Source of the DNA: Microbacterium ulmi
GTDB taxonomy: Bacteria > Actinomycetota > Actinomycetes > Actinomycetales > Microbacteriaceae
Assembly: GCF_011759705.1 (NCBI RefSeq)
Contig: NZ_JAAOZF010000002.1
Span: forward strand, 248,001 to 312,000
Direction: 5' to 3'
Length of the DNA: 64,000 nt
The position numbers and the translations under genes were made by a program. The notes under the pieces are model-generated. The model was given only the letters and a program-made list of their open reading frames with translations. It was not told the DNA's origin and ran no database searches. Numbering within the stretch: the first letter of the stretch is position 1; every line of letters starts with the position of its first letter. Shown here one piece after another: positions 7,297 through 28,770 of this stretch.

Positions 7297-8746
7297 CTAG
7301 AGGCCGATCGCGACGTCTGTGGGGCGCACGGGTGCCGGCAGCGACGTCTCGCCCATGAGGTAGGCGTCGACGCTCGCGGCCGCCGCGCGGCCCTCGGCGA
7401 TGGCCCACACGATGAGCGACTGGCCTCGGCCCGCGTCGCCGGCGACGAACACGCCGGGCGCCGTGGACTGCCACTCGTCGTCGCGCTCGACGGCGCCGCG
7501 CCCCGTGAACTGGGCGCCCAGCTGCTCCTCGAGGTGCTCCCGCTCGGGGCCGGTGAAGCCCATCGCGATGAGGACGAGGTCCGCGGGGATGTCGCGCTCG
7601 GTGCCGCTCTTGGGCACGCGCCTGCCGTCGACGAACTCCGTCTCGGCGATGCGCAGCGAGCGCACCTCGCCGGCCTCGTTGCCGATGAACTCGACGGTGG
7701 AGGCCAGATACGCCCGCTCGCCGCCCTCTTCGTGCGCGGACTGCACCTCGAACACCGTCGGCGTCATCGGCCAGGGCTGGTGCTCCGGGCGCTCGCCCGG
7801 AGGGCGACGGCCGATCGCGAGGTTCGTGACGCTCAGAGCACCCTGCCGGTGCGCCGTGCCGATGCAGTCGGCGCCCGTGTCGCCGCCGCCGATCACGATG
7901 ACGTGCTTGCCCTCGGCGGTGATCTGGTGCGGGACGGCGTCGCCCGCCGTCGCCCGGTTCGACTCCACGAGGTACTCCATCGCGAAGTGGACGCCCGCGA
8001 GGTCGCGCCCCGGCAGAGGAAGATCGCGCGGCATCGTGGCGCCGGTCGCGACGACGACCGCGTCGTAGCGGGCGCGCAGCTCGCTCCACGAGATGTCCTT
8101 GCCGATCTCGACGCCCGCGCGGAAGCGCGTGCCTTCGTCCTGCATCTGGCGGATGCGCGACTCGATGTGGCGCTTCTCCATCTTGAAGTCCGGGATGCCG
8201 TACCGCAGCAGTCCGCCGATGCGGTCGTCGCGCTCGAAGACCGCGACGGTGTGACCCGCGCGGGTCAGCTGCTGCGCCGCCGCGAGCCCGGCGGGGCCCG
8301 ATCCGACGATCGCGACCGTCTTGCCCGTCAGCCGTCCGGGGGGCTCGGCCTCGACCCAGCCGTTGCCGAAGGCCTCGTCGATGATCGAGACCTCGACCTG
8401 CTTGATCGTGACGGCGGGCTGGTTGATGCCGAGGACGCACGCGCTCTCGCACGGAGCGGGACACAGGCGTCCCGTGAACTCGGGGAAGTTGTTCGTCGCG
8501 TGCAGACGCTCGATCGCCGCGCGGCCCTCGCCGCGCCACGTGAGGTCGTTCCACTCGGGGATCAGGTTGCCGAGCGGACACCCCTTGTGACAGAACGGGA
8601 TGCCGCAGTCCATGCAGCGCCCTGCCTGGCGGCGGAGCACGGCCGAGTCGCCCGGCTCGTACACCTCTTTCCAGTCGAGGATGCGGACGGGCACAGGGCG
8701 CCGAGCGGGAAGCTCGCGCTCCGTGACTTTGAGAAAGCCCTTCGGG

Positions 8747-17511: not shown

Positions 17512-18105
17512 TCAGGCGGTCGGATCAGCGCCGCGCGACAGGTCGTCCCAGTCGTCGATCGCGTCGTGGGGGCGGGATGCCGCGGGGGCAGCGGCTGTCG
17601 CATCGCCGGGGCGGTACCGGCGGCCGCTGCCGCGCCACGCGTGCGCCGTCGAGAGCGTCAGCACCCCCGCGGCGAAGAGCACGATCCAGCCCGCGAGCGT
17701 CACGAAGGGCCACGGAGTGCTCGCCGTCGACGTGATGAGCGCCGACACGGCGGCCTCCCCCGTGAGCCCCGTCGCCTCTGTGACGGTCGATGCGACGGCG
17801 GATGCCGGGCGCTGCATCGCCACGGTCCCCGTGAGGGCGGTCAGGGCGACCGCGATCGTCACCGTGAGCGCGCCGAAGACGTACCGCAGGGCCGGTCCGA
17901 CGATCGTCAGCGCGAGGCCCAGGGCGAGGAGGGCCAGGCTCAGCGGTGCGAGGACGGGGATCGCGGAGGCGCCGGGGACCGCGAGCTCGCGGTGGGCGCC
18001 GTCGGCGAGAGCCACCGTGAGCCACGTCTGCGTCGACGAGACGACGCCGAGGGCCCCCGTCGCGACGATCGCGATCACCGCGAGGAGTCGCGCGCGGGCG
18101 ATCAT
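17512..18105 (-). CDS. Trp biosynthesis-associated membrane protein
   Basis: The 197-residue protein has about four membrane segments (near residues 5-23, 45-70, 73-93 and 125-150) and an acidic cytoplasmic tail. The start [20 protein letters not shown] and the motif STQTWLTV fit the actinobacterial Trp-region conserved membrane protein. Function is unknown. Its ATG overlaps the hisI stop (ATGA at 18102-18105). In related genomes trpE usually lies between hisI and this gene; here nothing does. Confidence 0.8.
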
Positions 18106-18473
18106 GACGCGTCGACGGGATCGGGCCCGACGACGGGGTCGAGGTCGTCCGCGTCGAAGCACGTCCGCGTGCCCGTGTGGCACGCCGGCCCGACCTGCTC
18201 CACCTGCAGCAGGACGGCGTCGCCGTCGCAGTCGAGGCGCGCGCCGCGCACGACCTGGATGTGGCCCGACGTGTCGCCCTTGCGCCAGTACTCCTGCCTC
18301 GACCGCGACCAGAAGGTCACACGACCCGAGGTGAGCGTGCGGCGGAGGGCCTCGGCATCCATCCAGCCGAGCATGAGGACCTCGCGCGTGTCCCATTGCT
18401 GCACGATCGCCGCGACGAGGCCCTTGTCGTCGAACGTCACGCGCGCGATGCGCTCTTCGATGGTCTCGGTCAT
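18102..18473 (-). CDS. hisI: Phosphoribosyl-AMP cyclohydrolase
   Basis: The 123-residue protein opens the purine ring of phosphoribosyl-AMP in the third step of histidine synthesis. The family signature is present, including [21 protein letters not shown] and the metal cysteines in [10 protein letters not shown] and [11 protein letters not shown]. It is the short single-domain form, and the separate hisE gene lies 1.7 kb away. It overlaps hisF by four bases (18470-18473). Confidence 0.95.
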
Positions 18474-19246
18474 CGTGTCTCGATCCCCTCGGCTCCCAGC
18501 GCCGCTTTCACGTCGCCGACGGTCAGCTGGCCCGAGTGGAAGACGGATGCCGCGAGCACGGCGTCGGCACCCGCGTGGATCGCGGGTGCGAAGTCCTCGG
18601 CGCGTCCTGCGCCGCCGGAGGCGATGACCGGCACGCTCGAGATCTCGCGCATGAGCGAGACGAGCTCGAGGTCGAAGCCCTCCTTCGTGCCGTCGGCGTC
18701 GATGGAGTTGACCAGGAGCTCGCCCGCGCCGCGCTGGGTCGCCTCGCGGGCCCATTCGAGCGCGTCGAGCGAGGTCTCCGTCCGGCCGCCGTGGGTCGTC
18801 ACGACGAACCCCGAGGGGATCCGGTCGATGACCCCGGCCGAGGCGCGCTTGACGTCGAGCGACAGGACGAGCACCTGCGCGCCGAACCGGTCGGCGATCT
18901 CGTCGATCAGACCGGGGCGTGCGATGGCGGCGGAGTTGACGCCGATCTTGTCGGCGCCGACGGACAGCAGCCGTGCGACGTCCTCGGTCGATCGCACTCC
19001 CCCGCCGACCGTCAGCGGGATGAAGACCTCCTCGGCCGTGCGGCGCACGACGTCGTAGGTCGTGGCGCGCTCGTCGACCGTCGCGGTCACGTCGAGGAAG
19101 GTGATCTCGTCCGCGCCCTGCAGGAAGTACGCGCGCGCGAGCTCGACGGGATCGCCCATGTCGCGCAGGTTCTCGAAGTTGACGCCCTTGACGACCCGGC
19201 CGCCGGCGACGTCGAGACAGGGGATGACGCGGCAGACGAGCGCCAT
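18470..19246 (-). CDS. hisF: Imidazole glycerol phosphate synthase, cyclase subunit
   Basis: The 258-residue TIM barrel makes imidazole glycerol phosphate and AICAR using ammonia from HisH. The start reads [18 protein letters not shown], with the first catalytic aspartate in CLD, and the two phosphate sites appear as VGGGVRS and ASGGAG. The second catalytic aspartate is in [12 protein letters not shown]. The ATG at 19244-19246 overlaps the hisG stop by one base. HisH, HisA, HisB, HisC and HisD are not in the window. Confidence 0.96.
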
Positions 19247-20088
19247 CAGAGCCTCGCTGCGTGGATCTCGGTCACGAGGATCGCGCGCGCGCCGATCGCG
19301 TAGAGGGCGTCCATGACCTGGTTGACGCCCTTGCGCGGGCTCATGACGCGCACGGCGACCCACTCGGGGTCGCGCAGCGGCGACACGGTCGGCGACTCGA
19401 TCCCGGGGGCGACGGCGACCGCCTGGTCGAGCAGGTGCACGGGCAGGTCGTAGTCGATGAGCACGTACCTGCGCGCGACCATGACGCCGCGCAGCCGCCG
19501 CAGCAGCGTCTCCGTGCCGTCGACCTTCACGGCGGGGCCGATCAGGACGGCCTCCGACTCGAGAAGCACGGGGCCGAAGATCTCGAGGCCGGCCTGCCGC
19601 AGCGTCGTTCCCGTCGACACGACGTCGGCGACGGCGTCCGCGACGCCGAGCTCGACGGCGGACTCGACGGCGCCGTCGAGGGGCACGAGGTCGACCGCGA
19701 TGTCCCGCGCGTCGAGGAACGCGTCCACGAGGCCGGGATACGCGGTCGCGACACGCACGCCGTCGAGGTCTTCGAGCCGGGTGAAGCGTCCAGGGGGCCC
19801 CGCGAACCGGAACGTCGAGTCGCCGAAGCCGAGCGCCTCGATCTCGCGCGCCCCCGGCATCCGGGCGTCGAAGAGGAGGTCGCGGCCCGTGATCCCGACG
19901 TCGAGCGCGCCCGACCCGACGTAGGTCGCGATGTCCTTGGGGCGCAGGTAGAAGAACTCGACGTCGTTCTGGGGGTCGATGACGTGCAGGTCTTTCGGGT
20001 CGCGCCGGCCGACGTATCCGGCCTCGTGGAGCATCTCGGAGGCGGTGTCGGCGAGGGAGCCCTTGTTCGGCACGGCGATTCGCAGCAT
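19246..20088 (-). CDS. hisG: ATP phosphoribosyltransferase, long form
   Basis: The 280-residue enzyme starts histidine synthesis from ATP and PRPP. The N-terminus [11 protein letters not shown] and the PRPP loop ([13 protein letters not shown]) are clear. The last 75 residues form the ACT-like regulatory domain of the long hexameric form, which binds histidine for feedback inhibition ([20 protein letters not shown]). No HisZ is needed for this form. The hisE gene lies 43 bases upstream on the same strand. Confidence 0.96.
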
Positions 20089-20131
20089 GGGGGCGTGGCT
20101 TTCGGGGTCGGAGCGGATGTCGGGCGGACGC

Positions 20132-20395
20132 TCAGAGATGTCGGTAGACGTCCTCGAGCGTGAGGCCCTTCGCGAGCATCAGCACCTGGAGGTGGTACAG
20201 CAGCTGTGAGATCTCCTCGGCTGCGGCATCCGTCGGCTCGTACTCTGCGGCCATCCAGACCTCTGCCGCCTCTTCGACGATCTTCTTGCCGATGGCGTGC
20301 ACGCCGGCGTCGAGCTCGGAGACGGTGCGGGACCCTTCGGGGCGCTCCACCGCCTTCGCGGTGAGCTCAGCGAACAGGGCGTCGAACGTCTTCAC
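20132..20395 (-). CDS. hisE: Phosphoribosyl-ATP pyrophosphatase
   Basis: The 87-residue all-alpha protein removes pyrophosphate from phosphoribosyl-ATP. It shows the MazG-like metal site with its acidic residues in [15 protein letters not shown] and the C-terminal [15 protein letters not shown]. Length is normal for the stand-alone actinobacterial enzyme. The order hisE-hisG-hisF-hisI suggests one transcript that enters the trp genes. Confidence 0.95.
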
Positions 20396-20436
20396 CGTCC
20401 AAGGTTACCGAACAGGGGGGACGCCGCGGTGCGCCG

Positions 20437-21120
20437 TCAGCGCCGATGGGAGTGCGCGGAGGCCCGCAGAGCCGCGATCGCGGCATCCGGATCGTCCGCG
20501 CCGAAGACGGCAGACCCCGCCACGAAGGTGTCGGCGCCCGCCTCGGCGGCCTGCTCGATGGTGCCGGGCGCGATGCCGCCGTCGACCTGCAGCCAGACCC
20601 CGGACCCGCGGCGCCGGGCCTCGTCCGAGAGGAGCCGGAGCTTGGGCATCATGTCGGCCATGAACGACTGACCGCCGAACCCCGGCTCGACCGTCATGAC
20701 GAGGATCTGGTCGAACTCGTCGAGCACGTCGAAGAGCGGCTCGACGCCCGTGGCCGGCTTGACGGCGACGCCCGCGCGCGCGCCGATCCCCCGAAGCGTG
20801 CGCGCGAGCGCGACGGGATCGGCAGCGGCCTCGAGGTGGAAGGTGACGGATGCCGCGCCGAGCTCGGCGTAGCCGGGCGCCCAGCGGTCGGGGTCGTCGA
20901 TCATGAGGTGCACGTCGAGGGGCACGGGGCTCGTCGCCTGGATGCGCTCGACCATCTGCGGGCCGAAGGTGAGGTTGGGCACGAAGTGGTTGTCCATGAC
21001 GTCGACGTGCACGAAGTCGGCCGTCGCGATGCGTGCGAGCTCGGCCCGCATGTTCACGAAGTCGGCCGCCAGGATGCTCGGATTGATGCGGATGCCGCTG
21101 CTGTCAGACACGACTCCCAT
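20437..21120 (-). CDS. rpe: Ribulose-phosphate 3-epimerase
   Basis: The 227-residue TIM barrel interconverts ribulose 5-phosphate and xylulose 5-phosphate in the pentose phosphate pathway. Metal and catalytic residues are visible in INPSILAADF, HVDVMDNHFVPN, DVHLMIDDP and QVDGGI, and the phosphate site in VAGSAVFG. It is the first gene of the minus-strand run toward hisE. Its ATG is divergent from the CHAT gene, with 83 bases between. In related genomes rsmB or fmt lies directly upstream. Confidence 0.96.
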   Translation of the reverse strand: MGVVSDSSGIRINPSILAADFVNMRAELARIATADFVHVDVMDNHFVPNLTFGPQMVERIQATSPVPLDVHLMIDDPDRWAPGYAELGAASVTFHLEAAADPVALARTLRGIGARAGVAVKPATGVEPLFDVLDEFDQILVMTVEPGFGGQSFMADMMPKLRLLSDEARRRGSGVWLQVDGGIAPGTIEQAAEAGADTFVAGSAVFGADDPDAAIAALRASAHSHRR

Positions 21121-21203
21121 TATGGGCGGGCGATCCGACGGGCCGTCGATGTATCGAGACGGACGCCAGACGCCTCTTCTTCGACGAACCCTCGGAGGTC
21201 TCC

Positions 21204-23051
21204 ATGGCAGCGGTGGTGGAACTCGAAGTCGGCGGCGGGGACGTCCCCGGCGCCTGGATCGTCCGGGTGCTTCGGTCGGCCGGGACCGGCGGCGGGCGCG
21301 GCGTCTTCGAGGTCGACGTCGACGCTCTGCTCGGCCGCCTCCGATCGCTCGAGGAGACGGTGCTCGCGTCCTCTGTCGTGGCGCGGCGGGTTCTCACTCC
21401 GGGCGAGTCGGATATCCAGCGCATCGGGACCGAGCTGTTCGACGGGCTGTTCCGCGATGATGTCGAGGCGGCGTATCGCACGAGTCGCGCGGTCGCCCTG
21501 TCGCGGGGTGAGACGGTGCAGCTGCGGCTGCGCCTCACCGACCCGAGGCTCGCGGCCCTTCCGTGGGAGACCCTCTACGACCGGACGAATCACGCCTATG
21601 TCTGTCGCAAGGACTCGCTGATCCGCCAGATCCCCTCCCCCGACTCGCTCCTGCCTCCGCAGCGCACGCTGCCGCTGAGGATCCTCGCGATGGTGTCGTC
21701 CCCCCGCCGGCTGGATCCGATCGACGCAGAGGGCGAGCGGGCGCGCCTCGAGGACGCGCTCGCCGCTCAGACGCAGGCCGGACTCGTTCAGCTCGAATGG
21801 CTCGAGGACGTCACGTGGGAGAGTCTGCACACGTCCCTGCTCGCCGGCGAGTGGCACGTCCTGCACTTCATCGGACACAGCCGGTATGACGTCGAGACCG
21901 ATCAGGGCGAGCTCGCCTTCAGCGCCTCCGGAGGACGCACCGACTGGGTCGGAGCCGACTCGCTCGCGGACCTCATCGCGGAGGCCGAGCCGGCGCCGCG
22001 CCTCGTCGTGCTCAACTCGTGCCTGTCCGGTGCGACGGGGTTCACCGAGCTGTACTCGGGCACGGCTTCCGCGCTCGTGCGCAACGGCGTCGATGCCGTC
22101 GTCGCGATGCAGTTCTCGATCACAGACGATGCGGCCCTCGCGTTCGCCCGCGGCTTCTACGGCGCGCTCGCGCACGGTCGCACGATCGACGACGCCACGC
22201 GCAGCGGAAGGATCGCGATCCTCGGGATGGGCCGCGACACGCTCGAGTGGGTGACGCCCGTGCTGTGCCTCCGCGGCGAGGACACGCGCCTGTTCGAGGC
22301 GAGGGCCTCGGCTGCCGAGCGGCCGCAGCCGGCCGCGCCGTCAGAGCCCGTGCGGGCGCAGGCGCAGCGGGATGCGGGTGAGGTCCCGCGGACGGCCGAT
22401 GCGGATGCCGTCCCCGACGAGCCGCCTGCTCCGGCGGCGAAGGAGGACGGCAGGGCTGAGGCTTCCGCCGCTGAGGACGACGATCTCGACCGCGCGCCGG
22501 CCCACGCCGATGCGCCGGATCCGCCGCGGACGCGCGTCTCGCGAGGTCGGCGATGGGCGGTGGTCGCCGTTCTGGCGATCGGCGTGCTGGCCGCGGCGGC
22601 GTTCGCGGTGTCGATGTGGCTGCAGCAGGCAGGCGACGACCAGAGCACCGAGACGACCCCTCCCGCAGCGTCGACGCCGCCGACTCCCGCGATCGCGACG
22701 ACCGTGGTCGAGGTGCCGGGGGCCCAGCTGTGGAAGCAGACGGGGATCGAATGCCGGACGGGAGCGCCGCTGCTCATCCGCGCGAGCGGAACAGTGCAGC
22801 ACGGGCCGACCGTCGATCGGACGTCCGGACCGGACGGGATGCCGGGCGAACGTCTCGACACGAACGTGATCTCCGACGCGAACCACGCCGCGCTCATCGC
22901 CCGCATCGGCGAGTTCGGGACCGCGTTCGTGGTCGGCTCGGCGCTGGACACCGTGTGCGACGCCGACGGGGAGCTGTTCCTCGGCATCAACGACGAAGGC
23001 TTCGTGGGGAACACCGGGCAGTACCTGGCGTCGGTCCGCTACGAACAGTGA
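21204..23051 (+). CDS. CHAT protease with one membrane segment and PA-IL-like lectin domain
   Basis: Three parts are visible in 615 residues. Residues about 150-360 are a CHAT (caspase-like) domain with the His in LHFIGHS (His225, where most family members have HG) and the Cys in VVLNSC (Cys273). A low-complexity acidic, Ala/Pro-rich linker (365-445) leads to an RGRR stop-transfer flank and one membrane segment (451-473). A Thr/Pro linker precedes a C-terminal domain (about 501-613) resembling galactose-binding PA-IL/LecA lectins (ALIARIGEFGTAFVVGS, LFLGINDEGF, GNTGQYLASV). No signal peptide is seen, so the protease should face the cytoplasm and the lectin the outside. A GGAGG ribosome site (21194-21198) supports the ATG. 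TCGATGTATCGA (21146-21157) in the divergent gap is a possible operator. No substrate gene is adjacent. Confidence 0.85.
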   Translation: MAAVVELEVGGGDVPGAWIVRVLRSAGTGGGRGVFEVDVDALLGRLRSLEETVLASSVVARRVLTPGESDIQRIGTELFDGLFRDDVEAAYRTSRAVALSRGETVQLRLRLTDPRLAALPWETLYDRTNHAYVCRKDSLIRQIPSPDSLLPPQRTLPLRILAMVSSPRRLDPIDAEGERARLEDALAAQTQAGLVQLEWLEDVTWESLHTSLLAGEWHVLHFIGHSRYDVETDQGELAFSASGGRTDWVGADSLADLIAEAEPAPRLVVLNSCLSGATGFTELYSGTASALVRNGVDAVVAMQFSITDDAALAFARGFYGALAHGRTIDDATRSGRIAILGMGRDTLEWVTPVLCLRGEDTRLFEARASAAERPQPAAPSEPVRAQAQRDAGEVPRTADADAVPDEPPAPAAKEDGRAEASAAEDDDLDRAPAHADAPDPPRTRVSRGRRWAVVAVLAIGVLAAAAFAVSMWLQQAGDDQSTETTPPAASTPPTPAIATTVVEVPGAQLWKQTGIECRTGAPLLIRASGTVQHGPTVDRTSGPDGMPGERLDTNVISDANHAALIARIGEFGTAFVVGSALDTVCDADGELFLGINDEGFVGNTGQYLASVRYEQ

Positions 23052-23123
23052 CCGTGGCCACGTCGTGCACCGGCATCCCTATCAGATCGCGAGCGGGGAC
23101 CTCTCTCCCCACAGTCGTCGTGA

Positions 23124-23257
23124 GGCGGCTTCCTGAGCGGGCACCGCTGCTTCCTCCACCACGTCGAGCAGAAGGTGCAGGGCTGTGTGCGCGGCGTCGT
23201 GATCCCCTACTGGGACTGGGCCGACCCCGCGCTGCTCATGACGGAGACCTTCGGGTG
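23124..23257 (+). pseudogene. Tyrosinase gene fragment
   Basis: Between the CHAT gene and rsmB one frame reads GHRCFLHHVEQ, a short spacer and VVIPYWDWADP, which match the end of the first copper site and the PYWDW block of bacterial tyrosinases. The frame is bounded upstream by a stop at 23121-23123, and the rest of the family (the HxxxH copper B site) is absent because the rsmB stop follows. About 35-45 residues remain of a usual 270 or more, so this is a dead remnant. A start at the in-frame ATG near 23238 would give nothing recognisable. Confidence 0.65.
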
Positions 23258-24625
23258 TCAGACCCTCCGCAGGAGCGAGATCGACATCGCGTCCGTGTTG
23301 TGGCGGTGGGGCCACAGCTGCGCGCGTCCCGATCCGTCGACCTGGTCGGGCAGCTCGGGGGCCGACACCGAGAGGCCCCGGAGCACGGCGCGCGCGTCGA
23401 GCTCTTCGACGGCCTCGCCGAACTCGCGCCGGATCTCGGCGACGACGCCCGCTGTCTCGGCGAGGTGCGGCGAGCAGGTCACGTAGGCGACGATGCCGCC
23501 CGGCTTGAGGGCGACGATCGCGGCCTCGAGCAGATCGCGCTGCAGCGCCGACAGCTCGGGCACGTCGGACGGCGCCTTCCGCCACCGGGCCTCGGGGCGG
23601 CGACGGAGGGCGCCGAGTCCCGTGCAGGGCGCATCGACGAGGATCCGGTCGTACGTCGCGGGCGACTCCGAGGCGCGGACGCGGCCGTCCAGCTCCGACA
23701 CGGAGACCTCGAGCGGCACGCCCGCGACGGCAGCCCGCACGAGTCCTGCCCGAGCCGGGGAGATCTCGTTCGCCTCGAGCGTCGCGCCGCCCGCGAGGGC
23801 CTCGGCGGCGAGGATCGCGGTCTTGCCGCCCGGACCCGCGCACAGGTCGAGCCAGCGCTCCCCCGCACGGACGGGCTCGGCACGGGTGAGCGCGAGCGCC
23901 GCGAGCTGCGATCCCTCGTCCTGAACGCGCACACGGCCGTCCGATCCGCGCACGGTCTCGTCGGGATCCCCGCCCGCGAGCCGGAACCCGAACGGCGAGT
24001 ACGGCGTCCGGCGGACGTCGGGGGGCACGTCCGCGAGACCGGGCAGCGCCGCCATCGTCACCTTGGGCGACGCGTTGTCGGCCGTCAGGAGCGCCTCCAG
24101 CTCGTGCGCGCGGCCCTCGGCGGCGAGCGCCCGTCGGAAGGCGCGCACGATCCACACGGGGTGCGAGAGCACGAGGCCCAGCCGTTCGTCGTCGGAGCGC
24201 GCGCGGTCTTCGACCTGGGCCATCCAGTCGCCGGGCGTGTCGCGGGACACGCGTCGCAGGACGGCGTTGACGAATCCGGCGGCTCCGCGGCCCGCGCCCT
24301 CGCGGGCCAGCTCGACCGACTCGTTGACCGCTGCGTGCGACGCGACGCGCGTCGAGAGGAGCTGGTGGACGCCGAGACGGAGCGCGTCGAGCGCGGCGGG
24401 GTCGATGTCGTGCGTGGGGCGGTCTGCGGCGATCGCGATGACCGCGTCGTACGTGCCCTGGCGGCGCAGCGTCCCGTACGTCAGCTCGGTCGCGAGCGCG
24501 GCATCCGCCGTCGCGAGTCGCGCGCGCTCGAGGGCGCGAGGCAGCAGCAGGTTGGCATACGCGTCCGACTCGTGGACGGCGCGCACGACCTCGTAGGCGA
24601 CGCGCCGGGACTCCGCGGCGCTCAT
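23258..24625 (-). CDS. rsmB: 16S rRNA m5C967 methyltransferase
   Basis: The 455-residue protein has an N-terminal NusB-like RNA-binding domain (about 1-140) and a C-terminal SAM-dependent methyltransferase domain. The SAM site is LDLCAGPGGKTA, and the two catalytic cysteines lie in DAPCTGLGALRRRPEARW and VTCSPH. The ATG at 24623-24625 overlaps the fmt stop (ATGA). Fmt and RsmB genes are neighbours in most bacteria, and rpe normally follows; here the accessory insert takes that position. Confidence 0.95.
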   Translation of the reverse strand: MSAAESRRVAYEVVRAVHESDAYANLLLPRALERARLATADAALATELTYGTLRRQGTYDAVIAIAADRPTHDIDPAALDALRLGVHQLLSTRVASHAAVNESVELAREGAGRGAAGFVNAVLRRVSRDTPGDWMAQVEDRARSDDERLGLVLSHPVWIVRAFRRALAAEGRAHELEALLTADNASPKVTMAALPGLADVPPDVRRTPYSPFGFRLAGGDPDETVRGSDGRVRVQDEGSQLAALALTRAEPVRAGERWLDLCAGPGGKTAILAAEALAGGATLEANEISPARAGLVRAAVAGVPLEVSVSELDGRVRASESPATYDRILVDAPCTGLGALRRRPEARWRKAPSDVPELSALQRDLLEAAIVALKPGGIVAYVTCSPHLAETAGVVAEIRREFGEAVEELDARAVLRGLSVSAPELPDQVDGSGRAQLWPHRHNTDAMSISLLRRV

Positions 24626-25545
24626 CGGCCCGCCACAGGGTCGACGAGACGCGCGCCGCGCCACCAGTCGCCGGCCGCCATCGCGCCCCTGCCCGCGGGC
24701 TGGACCGCCACGAGCTCGATCGGGTCGGATCCGGTGCCGGCCAGAACCGCCCTGCCGTGCGCCGCGAGGGCCCCCGCGGCGAGTCGAGGGGCGCCGGCAG
24801 GGGCCGCGGTCGCGGCGAGCACCTTGAGGCGCGAGCCGTCGAGCGTCGTATGGGCGCCGGGCTCGGGCGTGACGCCGCGAAGGCGCGCGAGGACGCCCTC
24901 CCGCGGCTCTTCCCATCGGATGAGCCCGTCGTCGAGCGTGAGCTTCGGTGCGATCGTGACCTCGCCCTCCTGCGGGGCGGCGACGGCCGTTCCGTCGGCG
25001 ATCGCGTCCACGACGCAGGCGAGAAGCCCGGCGCCGGAGTCTGCGAGCTCCGCGAGCAGGTCGCCCGCCGTCGCGGCGGGGTCGATCTCGTGGCGCAGCA
25101 CGCCGAAGACGTCGCCGGCGTCGAGCTCGGGCACGAGCTGGAAGACGGCCGCGCCGGTGACGGCATCCCCCGCCATGAGGGCGCGCTGCACGGGAGCGGC
25201 GCCCCGCCAGCGCGGCAGGAGCGAGAAGTGCAGATTGATCCAGCCGTGCGCGGGGGCGGACAGGAGAGGCTCGCGGACGAGGCCGCCGTAGGCGACGATG
25301 ACGCCGAGCTCCGGCTCGAACCCCGTGATGCGCGCCGTCGCCGCGTCGTCGAGGCGATCGGCCTTGACGGTCTCGATGCCGAGCTCGGCGGCCGCCAGCG
25401 CGACGGGAGACGGCGTCAGGACGCGCTTGCGCCCGAGCGGCGCGTCCGTGCGGGTGACGACGGCGGCGAGGTCGTGACGGGATGCCGCGAGCCGCCGCAA
25501 CGACGGCACGGCCGCCTCGGGAGTCCCGGCGAAGACGATGCGCAT
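24622..25545 (-). CDS. fmt: Methionyl-tRNA formyltransferase
   Basis: The 307-residue enzyme formylates initiator Met-tRNA with 10-formyltetrahydrofolate. The start MRIVFAGTPEAAVPSL and the catalytic Asn-His-Asp set in GWINLHFSLLPRWRGAAP and the ELDAGDVF region are visible. The C-terminal OB-like domain (about 205-307) binds tRNA. The frame stays open far upstream, through an antisense-like stretch of priA, but only this ATG gives the family N-terminus. It overlaps rsmB and lies 20 bases after the priA stop. Confidence 0.96.
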   Translation of the reverse strand: MRIVFAGTPEAAVPSLRRLAASRHDLAAVVTRTDAPLGRKRVLTPSPVALAAAELGIETVKADRLDDAATARITGFEPELGVIVAYGGLVREPLLSAPAHGWINLHFSLLPRWRGAAPVQRALMAGDAVTGAAVFQLVPELDAGDVFGVLRHEIDPAATAGDLLAELADSGAGLLACVVDAIADGTAVAAPQEGEVTIAPKLTLDDGLIRWEEPREGVLARLRGVTPEPGAHTTLDGSRLKVLAATAAPAGAPRLAAGALAAHGRAVLAGTGSDPIELVAVQPAGRGAMAAGDWWRGARLVDPVAGR

Positions 25546-25565
25546 GGGCTCCTCGCGAATCCGTG

Positions 25566-27545
25566 TCAGAGGTCGAGATCGGGCACGTCGACCCGCACTC
25601 TGAGTGTATTGCGCGGGCCGGGAGGTCTGCCCTTGGCAGGACGGCGCGTGCGGAGCGCTTCGCTCACGACCGCCGCGCGAAGGGATGCCGCGACCCGAGC
25701 GCCCTGCGCGTAGTCGAAGCGGATGAGGGCGCGCGACGCACCATCGCCCGACGGCACGGGGCCGAGGACGGACTCGTCGTCGAGCGCGGGCACGGCGCCG
25801 CGCACGGCGTCGAGAGCAGCGGAGACGGCGGCCGTGCTGCCGTCCACGGACGCGACCCGGACTGCGGGCGGCATCCGCAGCGGAGCGCGCTGGGCGAGCT
25901 CCGCGCGGGCGTACGCGGGGTGGGTCCACGTGGCGAGAGCGCGCGCGACGGCTCCCGCGACGCCCACGAGGTGCACGGGGGCGCCGGATGCCGCGAGCGC
26001 CGCCGCGTTGGACCACCACCGCAGGCACGACTCGGCGATGCGCAGGTCCTCGGACTGCAGCATCCGGTCGCCGTCGAGCAGGATGACGGCGCGGTAGCCG
26101 CCCTCGGCGATCGGCTCGGCGCCGCGCGTCGCGACGACGAGCGCCGGTCGCGCGTCGACGCGCAGGACGGGGTGATCGCCGTCGGCGACGACGACACGGA
26201 CGCCGGGAAAGGCGCGGCCGAGCTCGTCGGCGGTGCGCTCGCTGCCCGAGGACGCCATCCGCACACGCGTCGAGGCGCAGTGCGGACACGTCCACGCGGT
26301 CGCCGCGCGTCCGCACCACCCGCACTCGGGCACCGCCCCCGGCCGTGCCGCATGCAGCGGTCCTGCGCAGTGGAGGCACCGCGCGGGGCGCCGGCAGTCC
26401 GCGCACACGAGCGCGGGCGCATACCCGGGACGCGCGACCTGCACGAGCACCGGGCCGTCGCGCAGCGCCTCGCGCGCCGCCGCGAAGGCGGCGGACGGCA
26501 CGCGCGAGCCGCGGGACTCGCCCTCCCTCGTCGCGCTGAGCACGACGCGCGGGGACGCACGCCGCCCGGCTGGGACGTCGCGCAGCCAGCTCAGCGAGAC
26601 GAGGCGCTCGACGTCGGTCGTGCGCGTGTGCCCCGCGAACAGCAGAGCGCACCCGTCGAGCTCCTGGCGGACGAGGGCGGCGTCGCGCGCGTGCACCCCG
26701 GGGCTCAGCGGCTCGGCGAGAAGGGGATCGCCGTCGTCCCACACGACGAGGAGCCCGACGTCGTGGGCGGGGGCGTAGACGGCCGAGCGATTTCCGATCA
26801 CGACGCACGGCTCATCCGAGAGCACACGGAGATAGCCGGCATACCGCGCAGGCGACGACTGCCGCGCATCGTCGCGCACGAGCGCGCCGTCGGGCACGCG
26901 CCCCGCGAGAGCCGCTGCCAGCTGGTCCTGATCGCGATGGTCGGGGACGACGACGACGGCGCTGCGCCCCGCCGCCAGCGTGCGGACGGCTGCTGCCGCG
27001 AGCAGCTCCGCCCACCCGCCGACCGTCGTGCCGTCCGCGAGGGCGACGGGGTGCGGCGGCGCGTCCAGCGCGAGTCGCTCGCCTGCCGTCATCGCGTCGG
27101 CAAGGCCCGGGAAGGCGCCGATCACGGCGCTCGCCCAGGCCGCCGACTCGGCTTCGACGGTCGCGACGGCGGGCGCTCCCGCCGCGAGCACCGCCTTCTC
27201 GGCCCGGACCATCCGCTTGGGGATCACGAGCCGCAGGACATCGGATGCCGAGCCGGCCGCGCGATCGGCGACGCGCCGCGCGAGCGCGTAGAGCCGCGCG
27301 GGGAGCACGGCCACCGGCGAGACGACGGACTCGAGCTCGGACAGCGGCCGAGGAGTCGGCTCGGACTCGCCCAGCTCGACGAGGAAGCCGTCGACGACAC
27401 GGCCCGCCGTGCGCAGGGGGACGCGGACGCGGACGCCCGGGATCGCGTCGGCTTCGAGCTTGGGCGGGATCGCGTAGTCGAAGAGCCGGTCGAGCTGGGG
27501 CAGCGGCGAGTCGATGAGCACTCGCGCGACGCGCCGCGCGGTCAT
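25566..27545 (-). CDS. priA: Primosomal protein PriA, helicase-degenerate actinobacterial form
   Basis: The 659-residue protein keeps the N-terminal DNA-binding region (RRVARVLIDSPLPQLDRLFDY split as RRVARVLID and LPQLDRLFDY) and the central zinc-binding cysteines (CADCRRPARCLHCAGPL and CGWCGRA...CPHC). The helicase core is decayed: where Walker A is expected the sequence reads VGGWAELLAAAAV with no GKT, and the DEAH box reads VVWDDGD. Actinobacterial PriA proteins are generally annotated as probable and non-helicase for this reason. A role in loading the replisome at stalled forks remains possible. It lies between metK and fmt, the normal site. Confidence 0.92.
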   Translation of the reverse strand: MTARRVARVLIDSPLPQLDRLFDYAIPPKLEADAIPGVRVRVPLRTAGRVVDGFLVELGESEPTPRPLSELESVVSPVAVLPARLYALARRVADRAAGSASDVLRLVIPKRMVRAEKAVLAAGAPAVATVEAESAAWASAVIGAFPGLADAMTAGERLALDAPPHPVALADGTTVGGWAELLAAAAVRTLAAGRSAVVVVPDHRDQDQLAAALAGRVPDGALVRDDARQSSPARYAGYLRVLSDEPCVVIGNRSAVYAPAHDVGLLVVWDDGDPLLAEPLSPGVHARDAALVRQELDGCALLFAGHTRTTDVERLVSLSWLRDVPAGRRASPRVVLSATREGESRGSRVPSAAFAAAREALRDGPVLVQVARPGYAPALVCADCRRPARCLHCAGPLHAARPGAVPECGWCGRAATAWTCPHCASTRVRMASSGSERTADELGRAFPGVRVVVADGDHPVLRVDARPALVVATRGAEPIAEGGYRAVILLDGDRMLQSEDLRIAESCLRWWSNAAALAASGAPVHLVGVAGAVARALATWTHPAYARAELAQRAPLRMPPAVRVASVDGSTAAVSAALDAVRGAVPALDDESVLGPVPSGDGASRALIRFDYAQGARVAASLRAAVVSEALRTRRPAKGRPPGPRNTLRVRVDVPDLDL

Positions 27546-27576
27546 GCGCGGCCTCGGCGCACGCCCGCGGGCACGG

Positions 27577-28770
27577 TCAGAGCCCGGCGGCCGCGCGGAG
27601 GTCGTCGACGCGGTCGGTGCGCTCCCACGTGAAGTCGGGCAGCTCGCGCCCGAAGTGGCCGTACGCGGCCGTCTGCGCGTAGATGGGCCGCAGGAGGTCG
27701 AGCTCGCCGATGATGGCCTTGGGGCGCAGGTCGAACACGTCGCGGATCGCTCTCGCGATGACCTCGTCCGACACGACGCCCGTGCCGAACGACTCGACGT
27801 ACAGGCCGACGGGCTTGGCCTTGCCGATCGCATACGCCACCTGCACCTCGAGCCGGTCGGCCAGGCCCGCGGCGACCGCGTTCTTCGCGACCCAGCGCAT
27901 CGCGTACGCCGCAGACCGGTCGACCTTCGACGGGTCTTTGCCGCTGAAGGCGCCGCCTCCGTGGCGCGATGCGCCGCCGTACGTGTCGATGATGATCTTG
28001 CGGCCCGTCAGACCCGCGTCGCCCTTGGGTCCGCCGATGACGAACTTGCCTGCGGGGTTGACGTAGTACGTGACGTCGGGCAGGTCGAGGCCCGTCGACT
28101 CGAGCACGGGATCGATGACGATCTCCCGGACGGCCGCGCGGAGGTCGGAGAGATCGATGTCGTCGTTGTGCTGCGTCGACAGCACGACGGCCTGGACGGT
28201 CTTGGGGGTCTGGCCGTCGTAGCCGAGCGTCACCTGCGTCTTGCCGTCGGGGCGGAGGAACGGCAGCTGGCCCGACCGGCGGACGTCGGCGAGGCGCTCG
28301 GCCATGCGGTGCGCCGTCCATGCCGCCATCGGCATGAGCTGAGGCGTCTCGTTCGTCGCGTAGCCGAACATGATGCCCTGGTCGCCGGCGCCCTGGAAGT
28401 CGTGCGGGTCTTCGGAACCGTCCTCGCGGCGCTCGAACGCCTTGTCGACGCCCGCGGCGATGTCGGACGACTGGGCGCCGATCGACACGCTGACGCCGCA
28501 CGAGTTGCCGTCGAAGCCCGTCTCGCTCGAGGTGTACCCGATGCGGTTGACGACACCGCGCACGATCGCGGGGATCTCGACGTAGGCGCTCGTCGACACC
28601 TCGCCGGCGACGTGGACGAGACCCGTCGTGACGAGCGTCTCGACCGCGACGCGCCCGTCGGGGTCCTCGGCCAGGATCGCGTCGAGGATCGAGTCCGAGA
28701 TCTGGTCGCAGATCTTGTCGGGGTGCCCTTCCGTGACGGACTCGGACGTGAACAGACGCAGCTCGGTCAT
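27577..28770 (-). CDS. metK: S-adenosylmethionine synthetase
   Basis: The 397-residue enzyme makes SAM from ATP and methionine. Motifs visible are [16 protein letters not shown], the ATP-binding hexapeptide GAGDQG, the P-loop-like [16 protein letters not shown] and C-terminal [13 protein letters not shown]. The length is normal. No SAM riboswitch-like fold is apparent in the 126 bases before it. In related genomes coaBC lies between rpoZ and metK; it is missing here. Confidence 0.97.

Follow-up and report, generated by a model that had tools for sequence, protein, structure and literature searches.

To our knowledge, the well-studied CHAT proteases of bacteria, Craspase and SAVED-CHAT, are all triggered from inside the cell, and neither carries a transmembrane segment or a lectin domain. 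SAVED-CHAT is switched on by a nucleotide signal. The window analysed here, a stretch of 64,000 nucleotides from Microbacterium ulmi (contig NZ_JAAOZF010000002.1, positions 248,001 to 312,000), holds a gene at 21204-23051 whose product joins a CHAT protease, a single transmembrane segment and a C-terminal domain of the LecA type. Craspase differs from this protein in its trigger, which is described as non-self RNA (PMC9729208).

Several described systems share part of this plan. The cyanobacterial protein HetF is likewise reported to combine CHAT, one transmembrane helix and a further domain (PMC8406250), so a CHAT domain with a single helix is a known arrangement. The HetF profile (NF045509) matches residues 73-360 of the window protein with an E-value of 7e-26. 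However, the score of 90.8 bits is far below the equivalog cut-off of 1200, and HetF has TPR rather than a LecA-fold domain. In System 4 of Kaur et al. 2020, the EACC1-caspase system, a small constant partner is described beside a protein with a caspase-superfamily N-terminus and variable C-terminal domains, some of them transmembrane and extracellular (PMC7159879). The window protein reaches 15.5 bits with the EACC1-caspase profile (NF047832), against a cut-off of 140, and the partner found beside its relatives is Trypco1 instead. In the Trypco1/Trypco2 conflict systems of the same study, a peptidase stands beside a Trypco gene, as in these relatives (PMC7159879), and Trypco1 is termed an adapter of conflict systems (PMC7159879; PMC10907252). 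One target diversified by a diversity-generating retroelement (DGR) is described with CHAT and TIR at a Trypco2 locus, a proposed antigen-sensor setting (PNAS 2024, PMC10907252). As described there, the Trypco/DGR systems typically hold trypsin, MoxR and vWA together with DGR mutation, whereas the window has CHAT with a LecA-fold domain and, by eye, no such neighbours. Where a VMAP ternary system would show MoxR, vWA and VMAP genes, those beside the window gene resemble core genes by eye.

The window protein is interpreted here as a one-component membrane receptor-protease of the conflict kind (defence, competition or self/non-self recognition), from a family with interchangeable ectodomains. 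A probability of about 0.5 is assigned to this reading. It is favoured because the protease is conserved, the ectodomain diversifies, tandem copies exist and relatives have a conflict-system neighbour. The features of the gene are as follows; pLDDT is the confidence score (predicted local distance difference test) of an AlphaFold2 model.

21204-23051, forward strand: CHAT, transmembrane and LecA-fold protein; one open reading frame, 615 amino acids
21194-21198, forward strand: ribosome-binding site GGAGG, 5 nt before the ATG, read from the sequence
21204-22301, forward strand: residues 1-366, separase/Craspase-like N-terminal part and catalytic CHAT domain; VIA-align rows cover 1-366 of the model, Pfam CHAT 73-344
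21876-21881, forward strand: catalytic His225 and Ser226, HS replacing HG; His in 88/89 and Ser in 4/89 aligned domains
22020-22022, forward strand: catalytic Cys273; Cys in 89/89 aligned domains
22302-22559, forward strand: disordered Pro/Ala-rich linker with low pLDDT, basic right before the membrane (the last 15 residues ahead of the helix hold 5 K/R and 1 D/E)
22560-22616, forward strand: transmembrane segment, residues 453-471; hydropathy 2.59, helix at 450-475 in the model
22689-23048, forward strand: LecA/PllA-fold domain, residues 496-615; Pfam, profile search, Foldseek and VIA-align
22752-22754, forward strand: Cys517, half of an invariant cysteine pair (column C27 of a 29-domain alignment)
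22956-22958, forward strand: Cys585, second half of the pair (column C95 of the same alignment)
22989-23018, forward strand: N596-G605, corresponding to the calcium loop of LecA; N596, D597, N603 and G605 invariant in 29 domains

The initial annotation had proposed this three-part plan, and Pfam, AlphaFold2, structure comparison and profile search all bear it out. Pfam CHAT (PF12770) covers residues 73-344 (E 6.8e-28, 98.4 bits, above the cut-off of 24), and the single PADLOC match is SAVED_CHAT at residues 133-378. The AlphaFold2 model was built from 46 input sequences and has a mean pLDDT of 83.0. Within 1-366 and 496-615, most blocks of ten residues score 82-98; the score dips around residues 61-70, 271-280 (right after Cys273) and 551-560. 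Matches from Foldseek were given a second look with VIA-align. The N-terminal part of the model matches SAVED-CHAT (Z 20.6), the TPR-CHAT protein Csx29 of Craspase (Z 19.7) and separase (Z 18.9), while gingipains follow at Z 15.7 and below. The first two share both the CHAT fold and the His/Cys dyad with the window protein. The matches to separase and Craspase indirectly favour a His225 placed close to Cys273.

The dyad columns are nearly invariant. Counting the window's own, His225 is conserved in 88 of the 89 aligned CHAT domains and Cys273 in every one, in agreement with the earlier claim of an intact catalytic pair. By sequence, then, the window protein is a CHAT protease with an intact dyad, and activity is predicted. 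The sole aligned row without the catalytic His is a Rhodococcus protein of CHAT, TIR and response-regulator receiver domains (L064 1693-4086), which has Tyr there. The residue after the His had also been read as possibly tuning or weakening activity. Ser226 recurs in 3 of the 88 other domains, including that of the closest relative (L028), which also keeps a Trypco1 gene; for this reason, HS in place of HG is no sign of decay or weakening.

The protease is likely to lie in the cytoplasm and the lectin-fold domain outside, as first suggested. This topology is strongly inferred from the lack of a visible signal peptide, positive-inside flanks and an invariant cysteine pair in the outer domain. 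The only hydrophobic segment is that at 453-471. It is followed by 15 residues with no K/R and three D/E, compared with the five K/R and one D/E before it. The same K/R bias towards the 15 residues before the helix holds in all 27 listed lectin-type rows (three of them species duplicates), and all 27 have two or four cysteines after the helix. Such an invariant pair in the ectodomains fits a disulphide, which is expected outside the cell. The annotated ATG is supported because the ribosome-binding site precedes it. No signal peptide was seen in the protein, nor an obvious one, by eye, in the 39 in-frame codons upstream.

The LecA/PllA fold of the outer domain is supported by both sequence profiles and the model. 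Pfam PA-IL (PF07828) matches residues 511-611 (E 6.9e-5) with 23.3 bits against a cut-off of 22.5, or 27.9 bits for the domain alone. This match is weak by itself: at E <= 0.1, PF07828 recognises just 6 in a set of 29 related C-terminal domains, that of the window protein among them. As a search key across the genus, PF07828 gave no match in 198 genomes or in 14 controls. Since the window's own genome was among the 198, that search is uninformative. A profile built from the 29 domains is more telling. It matches five sequences of solved structure at E <= 10, all of the LecA/PllA type, the best at 2.4e-7. Residues 496-615 of the model superpose on EclA, PllA and LecA with Z 15.8-14.7 and a root-mean-square deviation of 1.8-3.3 in VIA-align; the best superposition has 1.8 A over 106 residues at Z 15.8. 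What the window domain shares with these lectins is the fold and, going by alignment, some of the calcium loop. Unlike them, the window domain is fused to a membrane protease and has an invariant cysteine pair.

A sugar had been put forward, beside surface contact, as the trigger; as a ligand it is a candidate. LecA D100, N107 and N108 are taken here to be calcium-site residues. The counterparts of D100 and N108 are invariant, and that of N107 is Gly602 in the window protein. LecA H50 and Q53, which are presumed to be the galactose-contact side chains, have no retained counterparts in the window alignment, although the loop there aligns uncertainly.

The full plan recurs among relatives. It was found in seven genomes of the same genus, the window's included, one of which (G109) has two lectin domains. 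A GTDB scan yielded 78 loci. For the counts, L045, L047 and L050 (same species as L029, L032 and L030) and L115 were dropped, as were CHAT matches below 60 bits and CHAT domains aligned over fewer than 280 residues; the weaker genus matches L009-L022, L026 and L036 were left out of the tree. In the resulting tree of 89 CHAT domains, 23 of the 24 lectin-type proteins fall in one group of 29 rows (support 100/97). The class without a transmembrane helix includes proteins whose helix is just below the hydropathy cut, or which are cut by a contig end (e.g. L042).

Other relatives carry different domains in the same place. For instance, L035 7554-9233 (G061) has CHAT, a transmembrane helix and PASTA, the same plan with a cell-wall-type outer domain. 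Elsewhere, CHAT is followed by WD40, NHL-like or PQQ propellers, by TIR and a receiver, or by several helices. One lectin-type protein, L098 4818-7130 from an Actinomycetales metagenome-assembled genome, lies outside the main clade on a long branch and adjoins Trypco1. Because of its position, the CHAT-lectin fusion may have arisen twice.

The two halves of the lectin-type proteins differ greatly in conservation. Twenty proteins, each having one lectin domain and matching CHAT over a long stretch, gave 190 pairs, with a mean identity of 68.6% in CHAT and 41.6% in the lectin domain. The lectin domain is the less conserved half in 187 of the pairs, and identity drops sharply at the end of CHAT. 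In the most extreme pair (L039_8633 and L043), CHAT is 92% and the lectin domain 30% identical. An example of tandem copies is found in Agromyces ramosus, where four neighbouring genes of the full plan lie at L039 4552-12496, the second and third being separated by one Trypco1 gene (8159-8587). These four paralogues are 73-81% identical in CHAT and 28-44% in the lectin domain. In eight of ten pairs, chosen for high CHAT identity or as paralogues, the lectin domain has a dN/dS of 0.53-1.11, compared with 0.08-0.25 for CHAT, with dS being rough at 30% protein identity. Recombinational exchange and fast divergence would fit this pattern alike, and the comparison does not separate them.

The other recurrent feature of the family is a neighbour. 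A gene of about 110-140 codons adjoins the CHAT gene in many relatives, mostly directly downstream. Pfam recognises Trypco1 (PF19493) in all three such neighbours tested (E 1.2e-23 to 3.5e-19). Within 300 bp, Trypco1 is found beside 29 of the 89 CHATs and 13 of the 24 lectin-type CHATs, measured from open reading frame ends at the first start codon (in L060, the domain itself is 568 bp away). It is on the opposite strand in L060, L074 and L094. The adjacency that marks Trypco1-linked peptidase systems is seen in five of the seven same-genus genomes with the full plan, at 7-43 bp, and is lacking in the window's genome. Across the genus, any Trypco1 at E <= 0.001 occurs in just 15 of 198 genomes, and in six of these it adjoins this CHAT family. 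Two other Trypco1 genes of the genus (L135 and L137) lie beside proteins with a trypsin-like N-terminus, as read by eye. Trypco1 received its name from such a trypsin-like peptidase neighbourhood (PMC7159879).

Trypco1 carries a short invariant motif. The Arg-Gly pair R33-G34 occurs in every one of 20 aligned proteins, and RG is present in all 29 full-length copies in CHAT loci (two short fragments are without it). The pair sits in a loop of very variable length, with pLDDT below 50 in a weak model. Strict conservation of two residues within so flexible a loop makes them a candidate motif for docking or cleavage. The Arg-Gly is doubled ten residues on in four of five Agromyces proteins, mostly as RGIP (L043 5549-5974, L051 7981-8382, L049 2240-2626 and L039 8159-8587; not L054). 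A structure search with this poor Trypco1 model gave no match in the PDB at E <= 0.001. Sequence-profile matches, mainly to designed helical proteins (best E 6.2e-6), were taken as chance.

These observations allow a mechanism to be proposed. An external ligand, probably a glycan or a cell-surface feature, would alter the association of the LecA-fold domain or the pull on it, and this would switch CHAT on across the membrane. Where relatives have Trypco1 as a neighbour, the active protease would work together with it, and the Arg-Gly loop is the most likely place for it to cut or dock. Dormancy, death or a transcriptional switch are candidate outcomes. The window gene stands alone, as had been reported, and the initial annotation had therefore supposed that the protein acts on itself, on a core target or on a distant substrate. 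The solitary position is correct for this copy, but many relatives adjoin Trypco1, and the family as a whole does not by default act on itself or on a core target. The window copy is an apparently intact family member without its usual partner. It might have another target, possibly itself, or be an uncoupled survivor with frame and active site intact. An Arg-Gly site in the linker of the window protein, standing in for Trypco1, was considered and set aside, since by eye L032, a relative that likewise has no Trypco1, shows no such site.

If this reading is true, a single protein that couples CHAT to a diversifying lectin-fold ectodomain would turn a surface signal straight into proteolysis. 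For Trypco1, the comparison supplies a motif open to testing, and the CHAT-Trypco1 pair is a minimal system of two genes, much simpler than the multi-gene ones in which Trypco1 was described. A bolder version, which is possible but rather doubtful, is that the family consists of single-protein receptors for pattern recognition or allorecognition, with a constant CHAT, diversifying and tandem-duplicated lectin-fold ectodomains, and Trypco1 as a cleavable Arg-Gly relay. Such a receptor would be a one-polypeptide analogue of a receptor plus caspase. The literature searched, which lay outside preprints and most subscription papers, describes no fusion of CHAT with a PA-IL/LecA-like domain. Within the reach of these searches, what is new is a CHAT protease bearing a LecA-fold ectodomain, the divergence of that ectodomain while the protease stays fixed, and the pairing of CHAT with Trypco1 and its Arg-Gly loop.

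Several observations weigh against a conflict-type receptor-protease. The gene is patchy, with matches in 22 of 198 genomes of the genus (E <= 0.001) and 3 of 299 of the family (E <= 1e-20, one of them the window's own). By eye, the gene is surrounded by core genes and lies in no defence island. Sixty of the 89 CHATs have no Trypco1 within 300 bp, and two profiles found none in the window's genome (3 contigs, 99.99% complete) or in G010. The model of Trypco1, at pLDDT 66.5, is of poor quality. The lectin domain is clearly constrained in the pairs L030/L031 and L055/L059 (dN/dS 0.18 and 0.17), so the divergence lies between types and not everywhere. Finally, separase is described as reading the P1 Arg through D2151, where TPR-CHAT has Lys (PMC9729208). 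By hand alignment, the counterpart of D2151 seems to be near S305 and is acidic in just 16 of 89 domains, which weakens the case for cutting after Arg. D174, E178 and D308 of the window protein were considered, from the alignment, as a putative Arg-specific S1 pocket, a reading that was set aside.

Of the alternatives, the least improbable, though still unlikely, is that the LecA-fold domain is an anchor or adhesin that tethers the protein to the envelope, with CHAT switched on from the cytoplasm. The cell-wall-type PASTA domain in the same place in L035 would suit this role. However, the ectodomains diverge far beyond the protease, even among the tandem paralogues, and an anchor to a constant wall is unlikely to need such divergence. 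Slightly less probable is an autoproteolytic release, in which CHAT, once active, cleaves the protein's own linker or the stretch next to the membrane and sets the protease or the ectodomain free. Autoproteolysis has been proposed for EACC1-system caspases with a variable C-terminus, some with a transmembrane segment and an extracellular PBP domain (PMC7159879); the long disordered linker of the window protein and the lack of a detected Trypco1 in its genome are in keeping with it. Against this, the score with the EACC1-caspase profile is low, as given above, and the linkers are just 30-50% identical in ten pairs, so that no shared cut site is visible.

A conflict-type receptor-protease also has to be set against two explanations of quite low probability. 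The window gene may be an orphan on its way out, its partner lost and its active-site glycine changed. Trypco1 was indeed not found in the nearly complete assembly, but the full-length frame, the ribosome-binding site, the catalytic pair and the invariant lectin residues are all kept, and HS is shared with L028, which retains its Trypco1. A degraded Trypco1 beside the gene was considered and rejected. Searching 18001-28000 with 20 Trypco1 proteins by tblastn gave weak matches only, the lowest E-values being 0.016 (27243-27407) and 0.026 (22969-23064, running over where the CHAT gene ends), and these were not accepted given 20 queries. The least probable explanation is that the protein controls transcription, through a sigma factor or some other switch, instead of cell death. 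It draws on a match of the model to a region, CHAT-like in fold, of DdvA (Z 16.7), by its PDB title a transmembrane anti-sigma factor, and on the report that Csx30, the protein cut by Craspase, binds RpoE (PMC9729208). Yet the DdvA match is limited to CHAT (model 1-356), and no sigma factor was recognised beside the gene by eye, no profile check having been made.

The genes on either side belong to a core-gene stretch, and the CHAT gene is solitary between them. They are placed outside the system:

20437-21120, reverse strand: rpe, flanking core gene
23258-24625, reverse strand: rsmB, flanking core gene

A foreign origin was considered from base composition, and the GC content of 0.718 in the CHAT gene against 0.710 across the window gives no signal. 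The window's genome holds two other CHAT-bearing open reading frames (L140 3734-6199 and L141 4112-6403), with no evident lectin domain by eye. The gap between rpe and rsmB is below about 160 bp, by aligned ends, in 8 of 11 same-genus relatives examined, about 440 bp in L148, and 1.2-1.4 kb in L146 and L150. In G118, the copy of the CHAT gene sits between hisE and rpe. The varying spacing and this second position indicate that the site is open to small insertions. Along the hisE-rpe-rsmB stretch (window 20396-23257; L028, L146 and L150), these occur at differing points across the genus.
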